From Oscillatoriales cyanobacterium PMM_0080 (GTDB lineage Bacteria; Cyanobacteriota; Cyanobacteriia; Cyanobacteriales; Microcoleaceae), in contig CASBQF010000305.1 in assembly GCA_949127775.1 (NCBI GenBank), positions 1 to 37,976 of the forward strand: 37,976 bases of DNA, in the 5' to 3' direction. Positions within the stretch are counted from its first letter, which is position 1. Every line of letters begins with the position of its first letter. Below are positions 9,887 through 20,662 of this stretch, piece by piece. The notes beneath the pieces are model-generated. The model saw only the letters and a list, made by a program, of their open reading frames with translations, was not told the origin of the DNA and ran no database searches. The translations under genes and the position numbers were made by a program.

Positions 9887-11313
9887 TTGCCCGATCGCAC
9901 TGTCAGAACTTGCGGCGGCGTAGCATCCGGCGGATACAAGAAATCCACCTGCACCAAACGCCGTTCCCCCGCTTTCAGATTCACATTTACCAAAGGCTCC
10001 CCTTGCTGTCCCCGTCGCTGCACAATGTGGATATAGCGCGTCAAAGTCTTTCCCGCATCATCCTTAAACATTACCCGCACCGTACCTCGGAAAAATATCC
10101 GATTTTCGGGAGGATCGTAAAACGTCAATCCCCCCGATTCCGTATTTGCCTTAACGGGTGTTTGCATCTTAATACTCACAGATTGGGAATCGCGAGATTT
10201 GTTATAAAGCGGAAAACTCAAACTATATTGAATTCCGTAATTACCGTGGGCAAAATAAGCAGTATCAGGATAGCGAGCTAACATTTTAGCACTTTGAATT
10301 TGACCAGTGCCAAAAGTACCAGTATCCGTAGTGCTCAAGGCATAGGAAAATTCTTCGCCACGTTTCGGAATAGTTAAATAATCGGTTCTTGAACTGTCAG
10401 TAATTTTAGCTTGCCATTGGGAACCTTCTGCCACTCCTGCTACACGCCCATAAATTTTTTGCTCAGCATTTGAACCGATCGCACTTGGTGTTAAATCTCT
10501 CGGCCCTGCTAAACCTTTGGTAGTTAAAATATTTTCCCACTGTTCCAAAGTCGGATATTGTTCGACTCCTTCCTTAGTTTTGGGAGCAAACATCGCTAAA
10601 CTAGCAACATAAACCGAATTACTGCTCGACATTCGCATCAAGGTCGATCGACCATTAGAAGAAGGCGTGACATTGCCAACAGGTATCGGCAAATTCATCA
10701 GCATTCGGCTCTGGTTGCCCGGTATTTCGATCGCAGCCGGCAAAATACCTTGTCTGTGTCCCCGCAATACATCGCTCGTGATGCGGCTCCCAGGCCCCGC
10801 AAACACAGTGCCGAATCGATTTTCTAAATAGGAAGGCAAATCGACAAACAAAGCATCGGGTTGAGTTAAATAACTCGCTCCTTGCAGGATATTTAAAGTG
10901 ACTGGTTCCGAGTTGGGATTGTAGACAATTATGCCTTGAAATAAAGTGCGAGTTTGTGAGCGATTTGCGGCCTTGGCGATGTGGTGGGCAAAGATATCAA
11001 ATCTGCCTTTGAAGGGAAAGTTTAAGTGAGCTGAAGGTACTTGTTTGGATTGCTGCGGAAATGTCGAGAGCAAAATGCCTTCGGTTTGCACGACTTCTGG
11101 GCTGTTGCTGTTGAAAACCGGGATGTTGTCGAGTTGTCCAGGCAAAACTCGCACTTGCTGGCGCATCATCACAGTTTTCAGCGGGATGCTGCTTGGCTGC
11201 GGCGGCAAATCCAGTTCGTTTTCGGGTACGGGGACTTCTGGCTGGATGAGCAGTTGCTGTCGGGCGGGAGGTGCGGCGATTACTTGAGCGAGGGAAAAAA
11301 TTGGCAGAAACAT
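9883..11313 (-). CDS. DUF3370 family secreted protein
   Basis: I recognise the cyanobacterial DUF3370 family from VRVLPGQLDNIPVFNSNSPEVVQTEGILLSTFP, SAHLNFPFKGRFDIFAHHI and ENRIFFRGTVRV. The frame opens at TTG 11451, but ATG 11313 (MFLPIFSLAQVIAAPPA) gives the short hydrophobic signal peptide expected for this family and a 476-residue product. Export to the periplasm or cell surface is therefore likely. Function is unknown; the many Pro/Gly/Asn and beta-type stretches suggest a wall or surface-layer component. The gene end meets the HNH stump of the convergent unit. Confidence 0.82.
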   Translation of the reverse strand: MFLPIFSLAQVIAAPPARQQLLIQPEVPVPENELDLPPQPSSIPLKTVMMRQQVRVLPGQLDNIPVFNSNSPEVVQTEGILLSTFPQQSKQVPSAHLNFPFKGRFDIFAHHIAKAANRSQTRTLFQGIIVYNPNSEPVTLNILQGASYLTQPDALFVDLPSYLENRFGTVFAGPGSRITSDVLRGHRQGILPAAIEIPGNQSRMLMNLPIPVGNVTPSSNGRSTLMRMSSSNSVYVASLAMFAPKTKEGVEQYPTLEQWENILTTKGLAGPRDLTPSAIGSNAEQKIYGRVAGVAEGSQWQAKITDSSRTDYLTIPKRGEEFSYALSTTDTGTFGTGQIQSAKMLARYPDTAYFAHGNYGIQYSLSFPLYNKSRDSQSVSIKMQTPVKANTESGGLTFYDPPENRIFFRGTVRVMFKDDAGKTLTRYIHIVQRRGQQGEPLVNVNLKAGERRLVQVDFLYPPDATPPQVLTVRSGN

Positions 11314-11528
11314 TGCTGTAGGTGCGTTTAACTGAACTTGCAGATTGCCTTGACATAGCAATCGACACAAAACTTTACCACAAGTTGGTTGATATTTTTG
11401 GGGATTTTTGGATTTTAGGTAAATTCTTGCGGTAATTTGGGCTGCTGCCAAATTTAGGACTTACCAACCCAGGACGAAAAACCCGGTTTCTGACGGGAAA
11501 TAAAGCGAAACCCGTAGAATTTCAGTTC

Positions 11529-11635
11529 GCGATCGCCATTTCAAAAAATATGAAGCTCGCTCATATTGTCACAACCAACAATGCTCTATCGTCTGATCTA
11601 TAAGTAACTCACAGGCTGCAACAGGAGGTTCGCAG
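11529..11635 (+). promoter_or_regulatory. ECF41-type promoter and leader of the SDR gene
   Basis: TGTCACA (11567-11573), 16 bases, then CGTC (11590-11593) matches the promoter reported for ECF41 sigma factors (TGTCACA-N16-CGTC). A dyad ATATGA-N7-TCATAT (11548-11566) abuts the -35 element. AGGAGG (11623-11628) sits 7 bases before the SDR start. The whole 107-bp leader has a diverged copy at 15705-15821. Confidence 0.75.
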
Positions 11636-12574
11636 ATGAGAATTTTTGTAGCAGGCGCAACGGGAGTAATCGGTCGTCCGCTAATCGCACAATTGCTGGC
11701 GAAAGGATACCATGTTACTGCTTTGACTCGTTCTCCAGAAAAAGCAGAGACTTTAGCTGAACAAGGCGTGGAACCTGCGATCGCAGATGTATTCGATGCG
11801 GATGCAGTTCAGGCTGTTGTTACCCGTGCTCAACCGGATGTAGTAATTGAACAACTCACTTCTCTGCCCAAAACCTACACTCCAGAGTCGATGCAGGCAG
11901 CAGCAGCATTGAACGATCGCATCCGTCGAGAAGGCGGTGCTAATTTGCTGAAGGCTTCACTGGCGGCTGGTGTACGTCGTTACGTCATGCAGTCGATCGC
12001 ATTTTGGGCAGTTCCCGGTGCAGGATTGGCAGACGAGGAAACGCCCTTAGCCGAGGATGCCTCGCCCGCAGTTGCAGACGGCAGTCGCACGCTTAAGGGG
12101 CTTGAATATCGCTTACTCGAAACACCCAACATCGAAGGAATTGTCCTGCGATATGGCTTCTTCTACGGCCCCGGTACTTGGTACGCTGCCGATGGCGATG
12201 CTGCCCAACAGGTGCGGCAACAACAATTCCCGATCGTCGGAAATGGCGAAGGGGTATGGTCGTGGATTCACGTTGAGGATGCCGCAGCAGCGACGGTGGC
12301 GGCAGTCGATCGCGGTAATTCTGGTATTTATCTAATTGCGGACGATCGACCTTTAGAGGTACGCCTGTGGCTCTGGGCTTATGCACAATGGTTAAATACT
12401 CCACCACCACCCCACGTATCGGTTGAGCAGGCTCTGCGTATCAGTGGTGCGGATGCTGTTTACTACGGTACTCAGATGAGAGGCGTATCGAATGCCAAAG
12501 CAAAACGCGAACTGAATTTTCAGCCTCGACCTTTGGAATGGATGGTTAACACTGCTGTTGCTCAAGCAAGCTGA
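11636..12574 (+). CDS. NAD(P)-dependent epimerase/SDR oxidoreductase
   Basis: The 312-residue protein is an atypical short-chain dehydrogenase. It has an N-terminal Rossmann motif GATGVIGRP (residues 7-15), the basic TRSPEK after the second strand indicating NADP preference, LRYGFFYGPGTWY typical of NAD-epimerase-like proteins, and VWSWIHVEDAAAATVAA. The substrate cannot be told. The leader has an ECF41-type promoter. ECF41 sigma genes are known to sit with carboxymuconolactone decarboxylase, oxidoreductase or epimerase (COE) genes, and this would be the COE member. The next gene starts 67 bases downstream on the same strand; the sigma remnant follows that gene. Confidence 0.88.
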   Translation: MRIFVAGATGVIGRPLIAQLLAKGYHVTALTRSPEKAETLAEQGVEPAIADVFDADAVQAVVTRAQPDVVIEQLTSLPKTYTPESMQAAAALNDRIRREGGANLLKASLAAGVRRYVMQSIAFWAVPGAGLADEETPLAEDASPAVADGSRTLKGLEYRLLETPNIEGIVLRYGFFYGPGTWYAADGDAAQQVRQQQFPIVGNGEGVWSWIHVEDAAAATVAAVDRGNSGIYLIADDRPLEVRLWLWAYAQWLNTPPPPHVSVEQALRISGADAVYYGTQMRGVSNAKAKRELNFQPRPLEWMVNTAVAQAS

Positions 12575-12887
12575 CAATTTAACTTCGATCGGGCTAACGC
12601 CGTGAATTACCTGGAAAGATTTCTAATCAGGGGGAAGCAAGATGAAGGTAGCTCAATATGGAACAACGATTGTAGTTATTCATGCGATCGCGCATGGACT
12701 ACATGGCTTAGCGCATGAGGAAATTCCAATTCCCCTCTCTCTCCTTCAGAGTGTATTTGTGGGTGTTGTGATTCTCTTGGTTCCCATCATTGCCGCCGTT
12801 TTACTGTGGACGCAGTTCGATCGCATCGGTAGCTGGCTATTGCTATATTCAATGGTGGCCGCGATCTTGTTTGGAATCTACAATCAT

Positions 12888-14326
12888 AAAAAGAATAGCG
12901 GAATGCGGGAAACTCAGCGATTTTAGTCCTTCCTAGGAAAGCGGCACGGCGAATTAATTCGCCTTGAATCTTTTCTATTAATTTGACGCATGATATAGTC
13001 TGAGTGTAGTCAACAAATTGGTTGCCTAAAATGGCAAGAAGTAAAAAAGCAATGGGAGTTCAGCAATGTCTGCTAACCCCAGACAAATATCTAAAATCTA
13101 TTCTCGAATACCTTTGTGGAGAATCGAATAAATTGCATAATTGTGCAGTTTATTATGCTCGACAGATTTGGTTTAAGGAGCGTAGGTTCGTAACTAAATT
13201 CGATTTAGTCAACGAAATGAATCGAAATTCACATTTTCGAGCAATGGCAAGTGAAGTATCGGTTCAAACCTGTCTTTCTGTGGGCGAATCTATTGTATCT
13301 TTCGCCGCTTTGTTGAAAAAATCAATGAACGGAGAATTGGAGAAAAGACCTAGATTTCCTGGCTACAGAAATCCTGGATTCCAGCTAATCGCCTTCCCTA
13401 AACGTGCCTTGAAACTGGTTGACGGCAAGATAAGACTACCACTGGGATTGCAAGTTAAGGCATGGTTTGGCTTGAAAGAGTTTTTTTTACCGATGCCGTC
13501 AAATCTCAAATTTGACGAACTAAGAGAAGTTCGTATTCTTCCTAGAAATAGATGCTTCTATGTCGAGTACGTATATCCAGCATCTCAAATCCAAGTGGAA
13601 GTAGATCCATCAAAAGTGCTTGGGCTAGACCACGGATTAAATAATTGGCTGACTGGGGTCAGCAATGTCGGAACTAGCTTGATAATTGATGGAAAGCATC
13701 TTAAGTCCAAAAATCAATGGTACAACAAGACAGTTGCCAGATTAATGGATGGAAAACCTAATGGATTTTGGTCTAACCGTTTAGCCAGAATCACGGAGAA
13801 GCGGAATAGAGTGATGCGAGATGCAACGAACAAGGCGGCTCGCAAGGTAATCGACCATTGTCTTGAGAATGGAATTGGCACGGTCGTTTTTGGTTGGAAT
13901 CAAGGTCAAAAAGACGGGGCAAATATGGGGAAAAAGACTAACCAAAAGTTTGTCCAAATTCCCACTGCCCGACTAAAGACTCGAATCCAACAGTTGTGCG
14001 AACGCTTCAGCATTCAATTCGTTGAAACAGAAGAATCGTATACAAGTAAAGCTAGTTTTGTTGACTCTGATTTTCTCCCCAAGTACCGTGAAAAACCGGA
14101 AGGCTGGGAGCCATCAGGAAGGCGAGTAAAACGCGGATTGTATCGCACCGGAAGCAACCAATATATAAATTGTGATTGTAACGGGGCAGCCAATATAATC
14201 AGAAAAGTAGCGGTGATGCTTGGATTGGATCTAAGCGGAATCAGTAGGGGCGAATTGAGTACGCCTTTGAAGTTCAGAATCTGGACTCTTCAAGAATCTC
14301 AGCGGCTTTAGCCCTGAGAGTTTCAA
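12888..14326 (+). mobile_element. tnpB-only IS200/IS605-type element
   Basis: The boundaries come from the gene it interrupts: codon CAT ends at 12887 and the frame resumes with TAC at 14327, without target duplication, as expected for this superfamily. The left end has a perfect 16-bp palindrome GGCGAATTAATTCGCC (12948-12963). The right end has a hairpin CTCAG..CTGAG (14299-14319) and terminates in TCAA, the same right cleavage tetranucleotide as IS608. There is no tnpA, so movement needs a transposase in trans. No GCGATCGC octamer occurs inside, unlike most of the window. The exact left nucleotide is uncertain by a few bases. Confidence 0.8.
13031..14311 (+). CDS. tnpB: TnpB RNA-guided nuclease of the IS605 superfamily
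   Basis: ATG 13031 (MARSKKAMGVQQCLL) gives 426 residues; an in-frame TTG lies three codons earlier. A RuvC-like triad is visible: Asp in VLGLDHGLNNW, Glu in QFVETEESYTSKASF, and Asp in NCDCNGAANI. The helical N-terminus and the FGWNQGQKDGANMGKKTNQKFVQIP region are typical. The usual CxxC..CxxC zinc finger between the Glu and the last Asp is absent; the loop reads FLPKYREKPEGWEPSGRRVKRG, as in a cyanobacterial subgroup. TnpB proteins are guided by an RNA from the element's right end. Here the stop is only 15 bases from that end, so any such RNA must overlap the coding sequence. Confidence 0.9.
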   Translation: MARSKKAMGVQQCLLTPDKYLKSILEYLCGESNKLHNCAVYYARQIWFKERRFVTKFDLVNEMNRNSHFRAMASEVSVQTCLSVGESIVSFAALLKKSMNGELEKRPRFPGYRNPGFQLIAFPKRALKLVDGKIRLPLGLQVKAWFGLKEFFLPMPSNLKFDELREVRILPRNRCFYVEYVYPASQIQVEVDPSKVLGLDHGLNNWLTGVSNVGTSLIIDGKHLKSKNQWYNKTVARLMDGKPNGFWSNRLARITEKRNRVMRDATNKAARKVIDHCLENGIGTVVFGWNQGQKDGANMGKKTNQKFVQIPTARLKTRIQQLCERFSIQFVETEESYTSKASFVDSDFLPKYREKPEGWEPSGRRVKRGLYRTGSNQYINCDCNGAANIIRKVAVMLGLDLSGISRGELSTPLKFRIWTLQESQRL

Positions 14327-14484
14327 TACATCGTAATTAGCCCCGATCATGTTTCTCACGTTTCCTTTGTAGGCTGGGGTTGGCTTTTCCAAGTTACAGC
14401 TATTATCACATTAATTGTGGATGGATTAGCGTGTTGGATGAGCATATCGGCATTGAAAGCTGTAACGCAAAACGAGCAGGTCTT

Positions 14485-14772
14485 ATGAGTTTTCTCCATG
14501 ACTTTAACCACTATGGAGCCATCAAAGTAGCTCAGTTTCTATTGGCAGTTCGTCGAAAATGGCTGGCCCATGCTGTTTCTCGCTTAGTTGAAATTAACGG
14601 ACAACCTGGCATAATTCAGTATTTGAATGGAAATATTCACAGCGTGACAACATTTGAGATTTTCGATGATTGTATTCAATCCATTTACAGTGTGCGGCAT
14701 CCAGAAAAGCTAGAGCAGATTTGCCGATCTATGTCTTTAGATAGGTATTTGAGAGCGATCGTTTCTGTATAG
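14485..14772 (+). pseudogene. C-terminal remnant of an ECF41 (SigJ-type) sigma factor
   Basis: The frame encodes 95 residues from ATG 14485 (MSFLHDFNHYGAIKVAQFLLAV). It matches the SnoaL-like C-terminal extension of ECF41 sigma factors: YGAIKVAQFLL, LVEINGQPGIIQYLNGNIHSVTTFEI, and RHPEKLEQI at the place of the family's NPDKL motif. The sigma-2 and sigma-4 domains and the DGGGK region are missing, so it cannot be a working sigma factor. It overlaps the stop of the split membrane gene by ATGA, which means the deletion left it translationally coupled. It may be debris, or a free regulatory domain. The ECF41-type promoter upstream of the SDR would be its original target. Confidence 0.75.
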
Positions 14773-14848: not shown

Positions 14849-15460
14849 ATGTCTGAAAAGAAAGCGTTAACGGACTACCCGATCCATGAATTTCTGGCAG
14901 AACGATGGAGTCCTTATGCCTTTCAAGATAAGCCGGTAATGCAAGTCGATCTTTGTTCGTTGTTCGAGGCTGCACGGTGGGCGGCATCTTCGTACAACGA
15001 GCAACCCTGGAGCTATATCGTCGCGACGAAGGATAACCCTGAGCATTTTCAACAACTCCTATCGTGTCTGGTTGAAGGAAACCAAGTTTGGGCAAAAAAC
15101 GCTCCGGTGCTGGCTTTGGGCATTGTTAACCTCAAATTTGCTCTGAATAACGAAGACAACCGGGCTGCGATTCATGACCTCGGAACTGCTACAGGCAATC
15201 TGGTAGTAGAGGCGACGGCACGGGGACTTTGTGTGCATCAGATGATTGGTATCCTTCCAGATAAGGCTCGATCGCTCTTTAGCATCCCTGAAGGTTCGGA
15301 GGCGTGGACGGGGATGGCGATCGGCTATCAGGGCGATCCAATGACACTCCCGGATGCTCTCAAGGAACGCGACTTGATGCCAAGGCAACGGAAAGCGCTG
15401 GAGCAATTTGTATTCAGCGGAAAGTGGGGAAATGCCTCATCGTTGCTGCTGAAGGAGTGA
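14849..15460 (+). CDS. Nitroreductase-family FMN oxidoreductase
   Basis: The 203-residue protein is in the nitroreductase superfamily: ERWSPYAFQDKPV at the start, FEAARWAASSYNEQPWSYIVA around the FMN phosphate site, HDLGTATGNLVVEATARGL, and MAIGYQGDP near the end. These enzymes reduce quinones, nitro compounds or enones with NAD(P)H. The true substrate is unknown. A good ribosome site (AGAGGAGC) precedes ATG 14849, and TATAAT lies at 14826-14831. It sits between the sigma remnant and the MITE that starts the oxidase block. Confidence 0.9.
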   Translation: MSEKKALTDYPIHEFLAERWSPYAFQDKPVMQVDLCSLFEAARWAASSYNEQPWSYIVATKDNPEHFQQLLSCLVEGNQVWAKNAPVLALGIVNLKFALNNEDNRAAIHDLGTATGNLVVEATARGLCVHQMIGILPDKARSLFSIPEGSEAWTGMAIGYQGDPMTLPDALKERDLMPRQRKALEQFVFSGKWGNASSLLLKE

Positions 15461-15523: not shown

Positions 15524-15648
15524 TAGACAAGATTGCAAAAATAGCTAGGACGGGCTCTTCGGCCCATCCCACAAAAAGTTTTTTTCTTGTGGAATGGGCA
15601 TCTTGCCCGTTCCAAAATTTGATTAAAAGGACTTTTGCAAGAGGTCTA
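15524..15648 (-). mobile_element. MITE copy 1 (inverted relative to copy 2)
   Basis: This 125-bp element has terminal inverted repeats TAGACCTCTTGCAAAA (right end intact, left end mutated to TAGACAAGATTGCAAAA). The interior forms a long hairpin of GGAACGGGC..GCCCATTCCAC type. On the minus strand it is almost identical to the copy at 20541-20662; the first 85 bases differ by one A. It has no coding capacity. The TA at each end would fit TA-duplicating (IS630/Tc-like) mobilisation, which is inference. Confidence 0.85.
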
Positions 15649-15704
15649 TTTTAATCAACACTTTCGCGACTGAGATCGAACTTACCGATCGGGTTTATCA
15701 GTGG

Positions 15705-15821
15705 GCGATCGCCATTTCAATGTTGAGAACGCTCCTCTTATCACAACCAACGATGCTGTTTCATCTGATCTGTAAATAGCTCACCGGAAATAGCTCACAA
15801 GCTTTAACAGAAGGTTCACAG
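15705..15821 (+). promoter_or_regulatory. Diverged copy of the ECF41-type promoter region
   Basis: This stretch aligns along its whole length with the SDR leader at 11529-11635: GCGATCGCCATTTCAA at the left, CACAACCAAC-ATGCT in the middle, TCTGATCT, and GGTTCACAG at the right. The core reads TATCACA (15739-15745), 16 bases, CATC (15762-15765), so each promoter element has one changed base. The SDR start codon has not been copied. Whether it still works as a promoter is unknown. Confidence 0.7.
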
Positions 15822-15849
15822 CCGATCGCGATCGATAAATAATTTCAAA

Positions 15850-15892
15850 TATGAGCTAGCTCATAGAAGCAATGGGAATTCTCTTGCATAAT
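15850..15892 (+). promoter_or_regulatory. Crp-type operator and class II-like promoter of the oxidase operon
   Basis: TATGAGCTAGCTCATA (15850-15865) is a perfect 16-bp palindrome with CRP/FNR geometry (TATGA-N6-TCATA). A -10-like CATAAT lies at 15887-15892. If transcription starts about 7 bases further, the dyad is centred near -41.5, the place used by activators of class II CRP-dependent promoters. Nineteen bases from 15850 are repeated with one mismatch at 19809. The local Crp-family protein is the likely ligand (inference). Confidence 0.7.
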
Positions 15893-15944
15893 CGAAATAG
15901 ACAAACTGTCCAATCTCTCTCAACACATCACAGGAGATCTTGAC

Positions 15945-16226
15945 ATGAATAGCGAAACAGTTTTAAGCCATGCACCCGTAGCAGCACCGCCTGCAATCAC
16001 CCTAATCCCAAATAATTCACTTTTAACCGAAACGCCTGAAGAGGGGCGGCACTTAGCCGTGAAAATGGCACGTCTGATTATCAAAATGACTCAGCCGGAT
16101 GAAGCGAAACGGTTACAACTACGAGATGTTTATGGCAATGATGCCATGATGCTGATTGCAGTTGGGCAGACTGTGGCGACAGAGTTTGCCGTAATCGCTG
16201 CTGCAAATAACTACTGGCGGAAGTAG
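15945..16226 (+). CDS. Small hypothetical protein, first gene of the oxidase operon
   Basis: The 93-residue protein has a low-complexity N-terminus (HAPVAAPPAITLIPNN) and a helical second half (EGRHLAVKMARLIIKMTQPDEAKRLQLRDVYGNDAMMLIAVGQTVATEFAVIAAAN). I do not recognise it. ACAGGAGA before ATG 15945 is a good ribosome site. It is followed after 52 bases by the oxidase gene on the same strand, so it probably belongs to the same transcript and its product may act with the oxidase. Confidence 0.7.
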   Translation: MNSETVLSHAPVAAPPAITLIPNNSLLTETPEEGRHLAVKMARLIIKMTQPDEAKRLQLRDVYGNDAMMLIAVGQTVATEFAVIAAANNYWRK

Positions 16227-16278
16227 TATTTCAAAATCATTAAATCAATAATATGTTCAGATTTTGGAGGCAAATACA

Positions 16279-16968
16279 ATGAAAGTTTTGATTCGATTAA
16301 TAGTCAGTTTTTTCGTGTTTATTGTGGATGTCGTGTATGGCGATCGCTCCTACGCTCGGTTTTATGTACTCGAAACGATCGCCCGCGTGCCTTATTTTTC
16401 CTATGTCTCAGTGCTGCATCTATACGAGACGCTGGGTTTGTGGCGCAAAGCTGATTTGTTGAAAATTCACTTTGCTGAAACCTGGAACGAATTACATCAT
16501 TTGTTGATTATGGAATCACTGGGAGGCGATCGCCTGTGGATCGATCGCTTCGTAGCTCAACACATCGCATTTGCGTACTACTGGGTTGTCGTGCTGCTCT
16601 ATATGCTATTTCCCAAGTACGCCTACTACCTGATGGAGTTGATTGAAGATCATGCCTACCAAACCTATGACGACTACTTGAAAATCAATGAAGTGGCACT
16701 GAAAACTCAACCTGCTCCCCAAGTCGCAATCAACTTCTATCGCGATGGAGATCTCTATACGTTTGACGAAGTTCAGACTACATCAAATCATGAATTTCGC
16801 CGCCCCAAGGTAGATGATCTATACGATGTGTTCGTGAATGTCCGTGATGACGAACGCGAACACGTGAAAACAATGGTGGCACTTCAACAACCAGAAGCGC
16901 GGCAAACCTTTAAAAGTCCCCATACGGTTTTTGAATTGATAGCTGCCAACAGCGATAAAACTGGCTGA
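16279..16968 (+). CDS. Alternative oxidase / plastid terminal oxidase homologue (PTOX type)
   Basis: This is a membrane-bound diiron quinol oxidase that passes electrons from (plasto)quinol to oxygen without pumping protons. ATG 16279 is chosen since GGAGG precedes it; the frame also opens at a TTG inside that site. All six diiron ligands are in place over 229 residues: Glu32 (LETIAR), Glu71 and His74 (NELHHLLIMES), Glu123 (LIEDHAY), Glu192 and His195 (RDDEREH). The motifs resemble the plastid terminal oxidase more than mitochondrial AOX. In the operon it lies between a small protein and a secreted protein. A Crp-type operator precedes the operon. Confidence 0.93.
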   Translation: MKVLIRLIVSFFVFIVDVVYGDRSYARFYVLETIARVPYFSYVSVLHLYETLGLWRKADLLKIHFAETWNELHHLLIMESLGGDRLWIDRFVAQHIAFAYYWVVVLLYMLFPKYAYYLMELIEDHAYQTYDDYLKINEVALKTQPAPQVAINFYRDGDLYTFDEVQTTSNHEFRRPKVDDLYDVFVNVRDDEREHVKTMVALQQPEARQTFKSPHTVFELIAANSDKTG

Positions 16969-20387: not shown

Positions 20388-20543
20388 ATGCACGAGTGTC
20401 CTTGTTGTTCTTCTCCATTGCTGCGACACGTTCAGCACCATGAAATTTGTTGGTTTTGTCCCCACTGTTGGACAACGATGCCAGTCTTCTCTGAATTGAT
20501 ACTCTCACCACGCGGCAAAGTTCTGGGGGTTGATGTTCAATAG
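20388..20543 (+). CDS. Small zinc-ribbon protein (51 residues)
   Basis: The product starts MHECPCCSSPLLRHVQHHEICWFCPHCW, with Cys pairs CPCC and CWFCPHC forming a probable zinc ribbon, then TTMPVFSELIL and a short tail. Similar short proteins occur in other filamentous cyanobacteria from memory; no function is known. CAGGTGAAAG precedes ATG 20388. It follows the 19883 gene by 22 bases and is probably co-transcribed. The stop codon TAG is formed by the first bases of MITE copy 2. Without the element the codon would read TAA, if the target was TA, so the protein is not shortened. Confidence 0.75.
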   Translation: MHECPCCSSPLLRHVQHHEICWFCPHCWTTMPVFSELILSPRGKVLGVDVQ

Positions 20544-20662
20544 ACCTCTTGCAAAAGTCCTTTTAATCAAATTTTGGAACGGGCAAGATGCCCATTCCAC
20601 AAGAAAAAACTTTTTGTGGGATGGGCATCTTGCCCGTCCTAGTTATTTTTGCAAGAGGTCTA
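20541..20662 (+). mobile_element. MITE copy 2 (inverted relative to copy 1)
   Basis: This 122-bp element has perfect 16-bp terminal inverted repeats (TAGACCTCTTGCAAAA and TTTTGCAAGAGGTCTA) and an internal hairpin. It is nearly identical to the reverse complement of 15524-15648, which implies recent spread. It sits exactly in the stop codon of the zinc-ribbon gene and about 65 bases before surE. Confidence 0.88.

Follow-up and report, generated by a model that had tools for sequence, protein, structure and literature searches.

ECF41 loci have been described as carrying the promoter motif TGTCACA, a spacer of 16 ± 1 bases and CGTC before a COE gene that itself precedes the ECF gene in the same direction, the ECF product bearing a C-terminal extension (Wecke et al., 2012; PMC3426412). 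That study places three motifs in the extension and reports that ECF41 became about 20 and 120 times as active when everything beyond residue 204 or 206 was removed (PMC3426412). Mycobacterium tuberculosis SigJ (PDB 5xe7) is homologous almost end to end (E 1.3e-44) to the intact ECF41 protein of a congener of the organism studied here, a model of which matches SigJ at E 5e-18 using Foldseek, as well as NTF2-like folds.

The window analysed here, a stretch of 37,976 nucleotides from assembly G000, resembles the loci set out in the text of Wecke et al. (2012; PMC3426412) in its promoter type and in having a co-directional COE gene upstream, whilst it differs from them in lacking sigma-2, WLPEP, sigma-4 and DGGG and in having a membrane-protein gene between the COE and sigma genes. 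Relative to SigJ (PDB 5xe7), the window gene retains the far C-terminal part only. The window probably holds a decaying ECF41 operon with a single target, composed of the promoter, the SDR/epimerase gene, a small membrane-protein gene and the ECF41 gene. The best reading of the locus is a further example of an operon of known type that is being lost and whose promoter has been orphaned. Decaying sigma-factor pseudogenes show deletion and mobile-element insertion in a regulator that is no longer kept; the window differs from these in that its target gene and promoter are still intact and in that several stages of loss occur in one genus. A literature search found no ECF sigma factor with a C-terminal extension described as a pseudogene, though we do not claim that none is in print. 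The features of the locus are given below, the congeners with an intact operon being G005, G012 and G017.

11567..11593, + strand: P1, ECF41-type promoter TGTCACA-N16-CGTC (exact motif)
11623..11628, + strand: AGGAGG, ribosome-binding site of the SDR gene (from the sequence; conserved in the three intact congeners)
11636..12574, + strand: SDR / NAD-dependent epimerase-family gene, intact, 312 aa, presumed P1 target (Pfam Epimerase PF01370, E 7.7e-22)
12642..12887, + strand: membrane-protein gene (136 aa), 5' piece, 82 codons (comparison with the intact genes of the three congeners)
12888..14326, + strand: TnpB element of the IS200/IS605 kind, inside the membrane-protein gene (ends from the intact congeners, ± a few bases)
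13022..14311, + strand: tnpB ORF (listed from TTG 13022; scanned from 13031)
14327..14488, + strand: membrane-protein gene, 3' piece, its stop overlapping the ATG of the next gene as ATGA (comparison with congeners)
14485..14772, + strand: headless ECF41 gene, in-frame fusion of its initial 9-10 codons with the last 77 codons of the intact gene, followed by 8 additional codons (comparison with congeners)
14849..15460, + strand: nitroreductase-family gene, between the operon and the P2 scar (Pfam PF00881, E 3.3e-14)
15739..15765, + strand: P2 scar, degenerate promoter copy TATCACA-N16-CATC (same scar in G014 and G019)
15945..16226, + strand: HTHP haem-protein gene, downstream of the P2 scar (Pfam PF11534, E 1.5e-30)
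16264..16968, + strand: AOX alternative-oxidase gene (Pfam PF01786, E 2.6e-30; listed from TTG 16264, scanned from 16279)

The P1 motif is taken to be real because of homology: all three congeners with an intact ECF41 operon (G005, G012 and G017) have it at the same place. It is the single exact TGTCACA-N16-CGTC in the whole window and its core is perfect (11/11), confirming the promoter that a preliminary description had placed ahead of the SDR start (ATG at 11636); shuffled controls gave a mean of 0.37 sites with one mismatch permitted. The motif stands upstream of a COE gene, the SDR gene with its Pfam Epimerase match, which is co-directional with the ECF gene as judged from gene order in the congeners and is 81-83% identical to their SDR genes. 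Among the best 80 of at least 395 ECF41 loci, 15 of the 16 from cyanobacteria and 33 of the 64 others contained the exact motif at some position, and none of the 80 contained the reversed pattern. The base at 11588 is specific to the window, and the possibility that it gives P1 a sigma-70 promoter was considered and rejected, as the two boxes would be just 15 bases apart.

The ORF at 14485-14772 (95 codons) derives from an ECF41 gene that, relative to the three intact congeners, has undergone a 618-bp in-frame internal deletion joining codons 1-10 to codon 217 onward. At the junction, codon 10 (CAT) and codon 216 of the intact gene, the latter being CAT in G012 and G017 and CAG in G005, are merged into one window codon. 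The deletion removed sigma-2, the WLPEP linker (at residue 80 in the congeners), sigma-4 and DGGG (at residue 203), as well as the N-terminal half of the SnoaL-like domain. Remnant residues 10-79 match the final 70 positions of NCBIfam SigX4 (TIGR02957) at E 1.7e-14 and the SigJ C-terminus (NF007214) at E 3.3e-10, far below the whole-protein cut-offs of both, as expected of a fragment; Pfam gave no match to it at E 1, and for the intact ECF41 of a congener Pfam likewise reported no SnoaL domain. The ECF41 similarity of the 95-residue product, and with it the picture of a locus without sigma-2 and sigma-4 yet with an ECF41-type promoter and an epimerase-type target, is therefore borne out by the profiles and the congener comparison. 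The preliminary description had also taken the ORF for an ECF41 extension: it is indeed ECF41 C-terminal and without sigma regions, but the extension is incomplete: some 135 residues lie C-terminal to sigma-4 in the intact protein and about 77 of them remain, short of a SnoaL/NTF2-like extension of about 100 residues. The product presumably cannot act as a sigma factor, and P1 would therefore be orphaned.

Profile searches of G000 found nothing over the cut-off of TIGR02957 or NF007214, the latter profile finding one gene over its cut-off in each of the three intact congeners, and the remnant was the sole match to the congener ECF41 protein at E 1e-20. By profile and protein searches, then, no cognate sigma factor for P1 was found in the G000 assembly, and the earlier suggestion that another ECF41 elsewhere might serve it is not supported. 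Six other low-scoring TIGR02957 matches (L014-L019), inspected for motifs, had neither WLPEP nor NPxKL; NF007214 gave one further low match (C92, E 0.05). An ECF41 gene could lie hidden in an assembly gap, since the assembly comprises 431 contigs and is 96% complete. A false deletion, produced by assembly or sequencing in a strain whose ECF41 gene is in fact whole, might be suggested by a draft in so many contigs but is nevertheless extremely improbable: the 618-bp junction is clean, in frame and within a 38-kb contig, the TnpB lesion and a scar adjoin it, kindred lesions occur in sister genomes, and the congener protein matches nothing else in G000.

The membrane-protein gene upstream is split by the TnpB element, its 5' frame continuing into the element as far as a stop at 12926. 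The element encodes a TnpB family protein (NF040570, E 3e-43, over cut-off) and contains no tnpA ORF within 12888..14326; partial relatives of it lie elsewhere in G000. The ATGA overlap between the membrane-gene stop and the remnant ATG, from which the preliminary description proposed coupling to the upstream gene, is still present together with the open frame, though it is already found in the intact operons of the three congeners and the gene upstream of it is now interrupted.

Could the headless ORF be a retained regulatory module, the inhibitory C-terminal half of the protein, which would sense a ligand or act on a different sigma factor in trans? The remnant is roughly the complement of the hyperactive ECF41 truncations described in the text of Wecke et al. 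(2012; PMC3426412), and its frame is open. Of the 11 columns with ≥70% conservation across the family it retains 10, which is no poorer than average, the 81 others departing at 1.15 columns on average (alignment of 78 of 79 ECF41 loci, omitting L070; L033, being the same gene as that of G005, was not counted among them). Omega on the window branch was 0.19 versus 0.20 elsewhere, with no excess of amino-acid change, and NG86 gave the same picture; a branch neutral over its whole length fitted 8.8 log units worse. Neutral shares of 0.3 and 0.2 of the window branch fitted 2.2 and 1.2 log units worse than none, which sets an upper bound of about a quarter of that branch. Relaxed selection was thus not detected in a test of low power (76 codons, four sequences), and the lack of excess change fits recent loss and residual use alike; the intact frame, ATGA overlap, conserved columns and perfect P1 core also fit a very recent deletion. 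For the membrane gene, omega of the 5' piece was 0.22 on the window branch versus 0.49 elsewhere, without sign of relaxation, and that of the 3' piece 0.55 versus 0.38, where any neutral share between 0 and 1 fitted almost equally well (differences of about 1 log unit at most). An AlphaFold2 model of the remnant predicts a helix, four strands and a helix (mean pLDDT 78, pTM 0.57). Foldseek found no match to this model in the PDB at E 0.001 (best E 0.4), a designed NTF2-like protein ranking 21st at E 1.0, a weak hint that the parent fold may be traceable in the model.

Against such a module, the domain has lost its initial helices and strand together with DGGG, leaving half a domain, and NPxKL reads HPEKL, an N-to-H change at a position that is N in 78 of 80 other sequences (motif letters here come from our alignments). 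No ECF41 partner was found, and the gene on the upstream side of the ATGA overlap is interrupted. Nor was a free-standing family of headless ECF41 proteins seen: a search of 291 genomes of the order gave matches at 22 places in 21 genomes, of which just two, in G000 and G224, have short frames (judged by open-frame length; five loci were read), the second lying in a genome of another family and adjoining an IS1 transposase. For one of the 22, a frame of 663 codons in G117 matched at E 6.5e-7, identity as an ECF41 is doubtful. The earlier idea that the free domain could act as a modulator is thereby weakened, and we regard a retained module as very unlikely; decay of the operon remains the preferred reading.

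Across the 29 genomes of the genus, the operon SDR, membrane protein and ECF41 with the same promoter is intact in three (3 of the 28 genomes other than G000), damaged or present as a remnant or scar in five including G000, and without trace at the thresholds used in 21. The ECF41 operon of Tychonema sp. LEGE 06208 (L033, taken to be that of G005) has the same promoter and gene order as the window, with 68-70% identity to the remnant, and unlike the window operon it is intact. In G002 the SDR gene is intact, an ECF41 match is absent and TGTCAC was not found in the 961 bases upstream of the SDR gene. In G004 the SDR gene is reduced to 117 bp interrupted by a stop in frame, and P1 is missing; the surroundings are those of the window locus (15849-16600 matched at 93% and 10801-11515 at 84%). 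In G014 and G019, where neither SDR nor ECF41 was found (the latter searched at E 1e-20), promoter and ribosome-site scars keep an exact 11/11 core. The loss in the window fits a genus-wide pattern of loss.

P2, which the preliminary description overlooked, sits in a 69-nt copy (15719-15787), after which the SDR ribosome-site region is likewise repeated as far as about 15821, with no SDR gene behind it. In G012 there is no nitroreductase gene at this place and the operon is followed directly by the HTHP gene.

The perfect cores at P1 and at the G014 and G019 scars, where no ECF41 match was found at E 1e-20, might suggest a regulatory handover in which another sigma factor now reads the orphan promoters; in G014 an intact HTHP-AOX pair begins about 230 bases downstream of the scar. 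A recent loss would also explain intact cores, however, and as the G014 and G019 cores are exact without an ECF41 having been found, a kept promoter is no proof of use. Moreover, window P2 has lost one base in each box relative to P1, and a promoter scan called no sigma-70-type site at P1 on the plus strand. Further TGTCACA-N16-CGTC sites, which the preliminary description proposed to look for, were not enriched in the genome: with spacers of 14-18, G000 has 10 exact sites versus 10 for the reversed pattern; its spacer-16 sites number three, the two outside the window falling inside long ORFs; and eight congeners have 17 exact spacer-16 sites versus 20 in the control, so that these are not commoner. 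Handover therefore appears very unlikely, as does its combination with a half-domain kept as a free modulator (a different sigma factor reading P1 for the SDR gene and, in G014, the scar for the haem-protein/alternative-oxidase pair).

Under decay of a one-target operon, the conserved layout and published ECF41 work suggest that in the ancestor ECF41 would have read TGTCACA-N16-CGTC, driving both its target and itself. Comparison with the congeners shows that the 618-bp deletion beheaded the ECF41 gene and that the TnpB element interrupted the membrane-protein gene; P1 would now be orphaned, and the SDR gene may have fallen silent, be expressed weakly or use a different start. An ECF41 operon is considered to have a single target, and loss of the sigma factor should therefore free or silence exactly one gene. 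Since related genomes hold the operon whole, beheaded, with just its target left or as a bare promoter scar, the genus offers a natural series in which to follow the fate of a promoter and its target once their sole sigma factor is gone, and any role of the leftover domain.

An ECF41-type promoter beside a headless ECF41 gene had been proposed for this locus from its sequence, together with loss of the sigma part of the gene, and both were confirmed by comparison with congeners, the observation being better than chance. The features concerned in the window are as follows.

11567-11593, TGTCACA-N16-CGTC promoter (P1), upstream of the SDR gene
11636-12574, SDR gene
12888-14326, TnpB element splitting the membrane-protein gene
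14485-14772, 95-codon ORF, the ECF41 remnant, downstream of the split membrane-protein gene
15719-15821, the 'scar': ECF41 promoter and SDR ribosome-site region in a second, degenerate copy that lacks the SDR, ahead of the HTHP and AOX genes

The genus sample comprised 29 genomes including the window's own (25 with completeness of 90% or more and contamination of 5% or less), and a complete ECF41 gene was present in three of them (G005, G012 and G017), each with the order SDR, 136-aa membrane protein, ECF41. Compared with these intact genes, the window ECF41 gene lacks codons 11-216, an in-frame deletion of 206 codons (618 bases) that removed sigma-2, WLPEP (residue 80), sigma-4 and DGGG (203), as well as the two helices and the strand with which the SnoaL-like domain begins. 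In the model of an intact congener protein (numbering one higher than the Met count) the deleted part covers H169-185, H188-194 and E195-203, whilst H219-233 to H280-290 remain. Since G012 and G017 have CAT at codon 10 as well as at codon 216, the 618-bp loss may possibly have occurred by short-repeat deletion. The ATGA overlap of the remnant with the upstream gene, noted in the preliminary description, is present, but equally so in the intact operons. The membrane-protein gene itself aligns with its congeners as far as 12887, and the alignment resumes at 14327; the intervening TnpB element contains no tnpA ORF, and its relatives elsewhere in the genome are only partial.

P1 was found at the equivalent position in all three intact-operon genomes, with similarity rising sharply at the -35 box across all aligned loci and, upstream of it, only short stretches common to some loci (e.g. 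G012 and G017). Among the best 80 loci, of at least 395 ECF41 relatives in a species-genome collection, the exact motif occurred in 15 of 16 cyanobacterial loci versus 33 of 64 others, and the reversed pattern in none of the 80. In those 15 loci the motif lies upstream of the ECF41 gene and, judged by eye, mostly ahead of the first gene of the row.

The window scar lies 4,172 bases beyond P1, and each of its promoter boxes carries a single changed base; it is the same scar as in G014 and G019, where it likewise consists of the promoter and SDR ribosome-site region. A plausible history is that a tandem copy arose first and that one copy was then deleted down to its promoter. In the window, 15533-15659 and 20529-20654 form an inverted match (128 columns, 91% identity), probably a small mobile repeat. 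The corresponding features in sister genomes are listed below.

G014, L148:230-395, scar
G014, L148:241-267, perfect ECF41 promoter core, with an intact HTHP-AOX pair about 230 bases downstream
G019, L140 about 4773-4690, minus strand, scar
G019, L140 4773-4747, minus strand, perfect ECF41 promoter core
G004, L160 bases 2413-2529 of the minus-strand reading, 117-bp SDR remnant with stop

Downstream of the scar, G014 carries the intact HTHP-AOX pair and G019 a frameshifted HTHP remnant; in neither genome did the searches match an ECF41 gene (at E 1e-20) or an SDR (at E 1e-40). A perfect core is thus weak evidence for promoter use. G002 has an intact SDR without an ECF41 match, and no TGTCAC in the 961 bases upstream of it. 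G004, with the same neighbours as the window, retains scar pieces and the SDR remnant, whose stop is in frame and which is flanked on both sides by sequence close to the window, whilst P1 and the remaining parts are absent; it is a further deletion of this locus. The 21 remaining genus genomes gave no match in the ECF41, SDR and scar searches, whose thresholds shorter remnants may escape, since that of G004 initially did so. A second headless ECF41 C-terminus was found in another family of the order (G224, L133), adjoining an IS1 transposase (Pfam PF03400, E 3.1e-46).

It had also been suggested that another ECF41 factor now drives the promoter, and that the free domain modulates it. When a congener ECF41 protein was searched against the window's genome (G000; assembly 96% complete) the single place matched was the remnant itself, and nothing exceeded the cut-off of either family model, SigX4 (TIGR02957) or SigJ (NF007214), G005, G012 and G017 serving as positive controls for one of the two. 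Six other low-scoring TIGR02957 rows (L014-L019) lack both WLPEP and NPxKL, and there was one further low NF007214 match, on C92 (E 0.05). A second factor is therefore unsupported.

The remnant aligns only with the ends of the two family models, its residues 10-79 corresponding to the final 70 positions of SigX4 and to the SigJ C-terminus, and no Pfam model recognises the product. Its AlphaFold2 model was of moderate confidence (pLDDT 78, pTM 0.57) and Foldseek matched nothing in the PDB at E 0.001 (best E 0.4; a designed NTF2-like protein ranked 21, E 1.0), unlike the intact congener model, which matches SigJ. In a four-sequence codon model omega was 0.19 on the window branch versus 0.20 elsewhere, and no tested neutral share of that branch beat zero, with an upper bound of about a quarter. 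Across 81 ECF41 proteins, 11 columns reach 70% conservation or more; the remnant departs at a single one of these (mean 1.15) and is therefore not unusual overall. The departing column, the N of NPxKL, is one of six conserved at 90% or more, where none of 18 cyanobacterial proteins departs (mean over the 81, 0.17).

Wecke et al. (2012; PMC3426412), who define the ECF41 promoter and single-target rule, report that a factor cut off after residue 204 or 206 becomes hyperactive, whilst removal of the whole extension abolishes activity; according to a review (PMC8999054), the extension touches a motif in the linker and hinders RNA polymerase binding. As the remnant roughly corresponds to the segment whose loss activates the factor in Wecke et al. 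(2012), a free inhibitor is conceivable, but no ECF41 factor to inhibit was found in G000, which leaves the claim of a working free domain unsupported. Because no neutral share fits better and the conserved columns are mostly kept, the sequence points either to a recent deletion or to some remaining use of the remnant.
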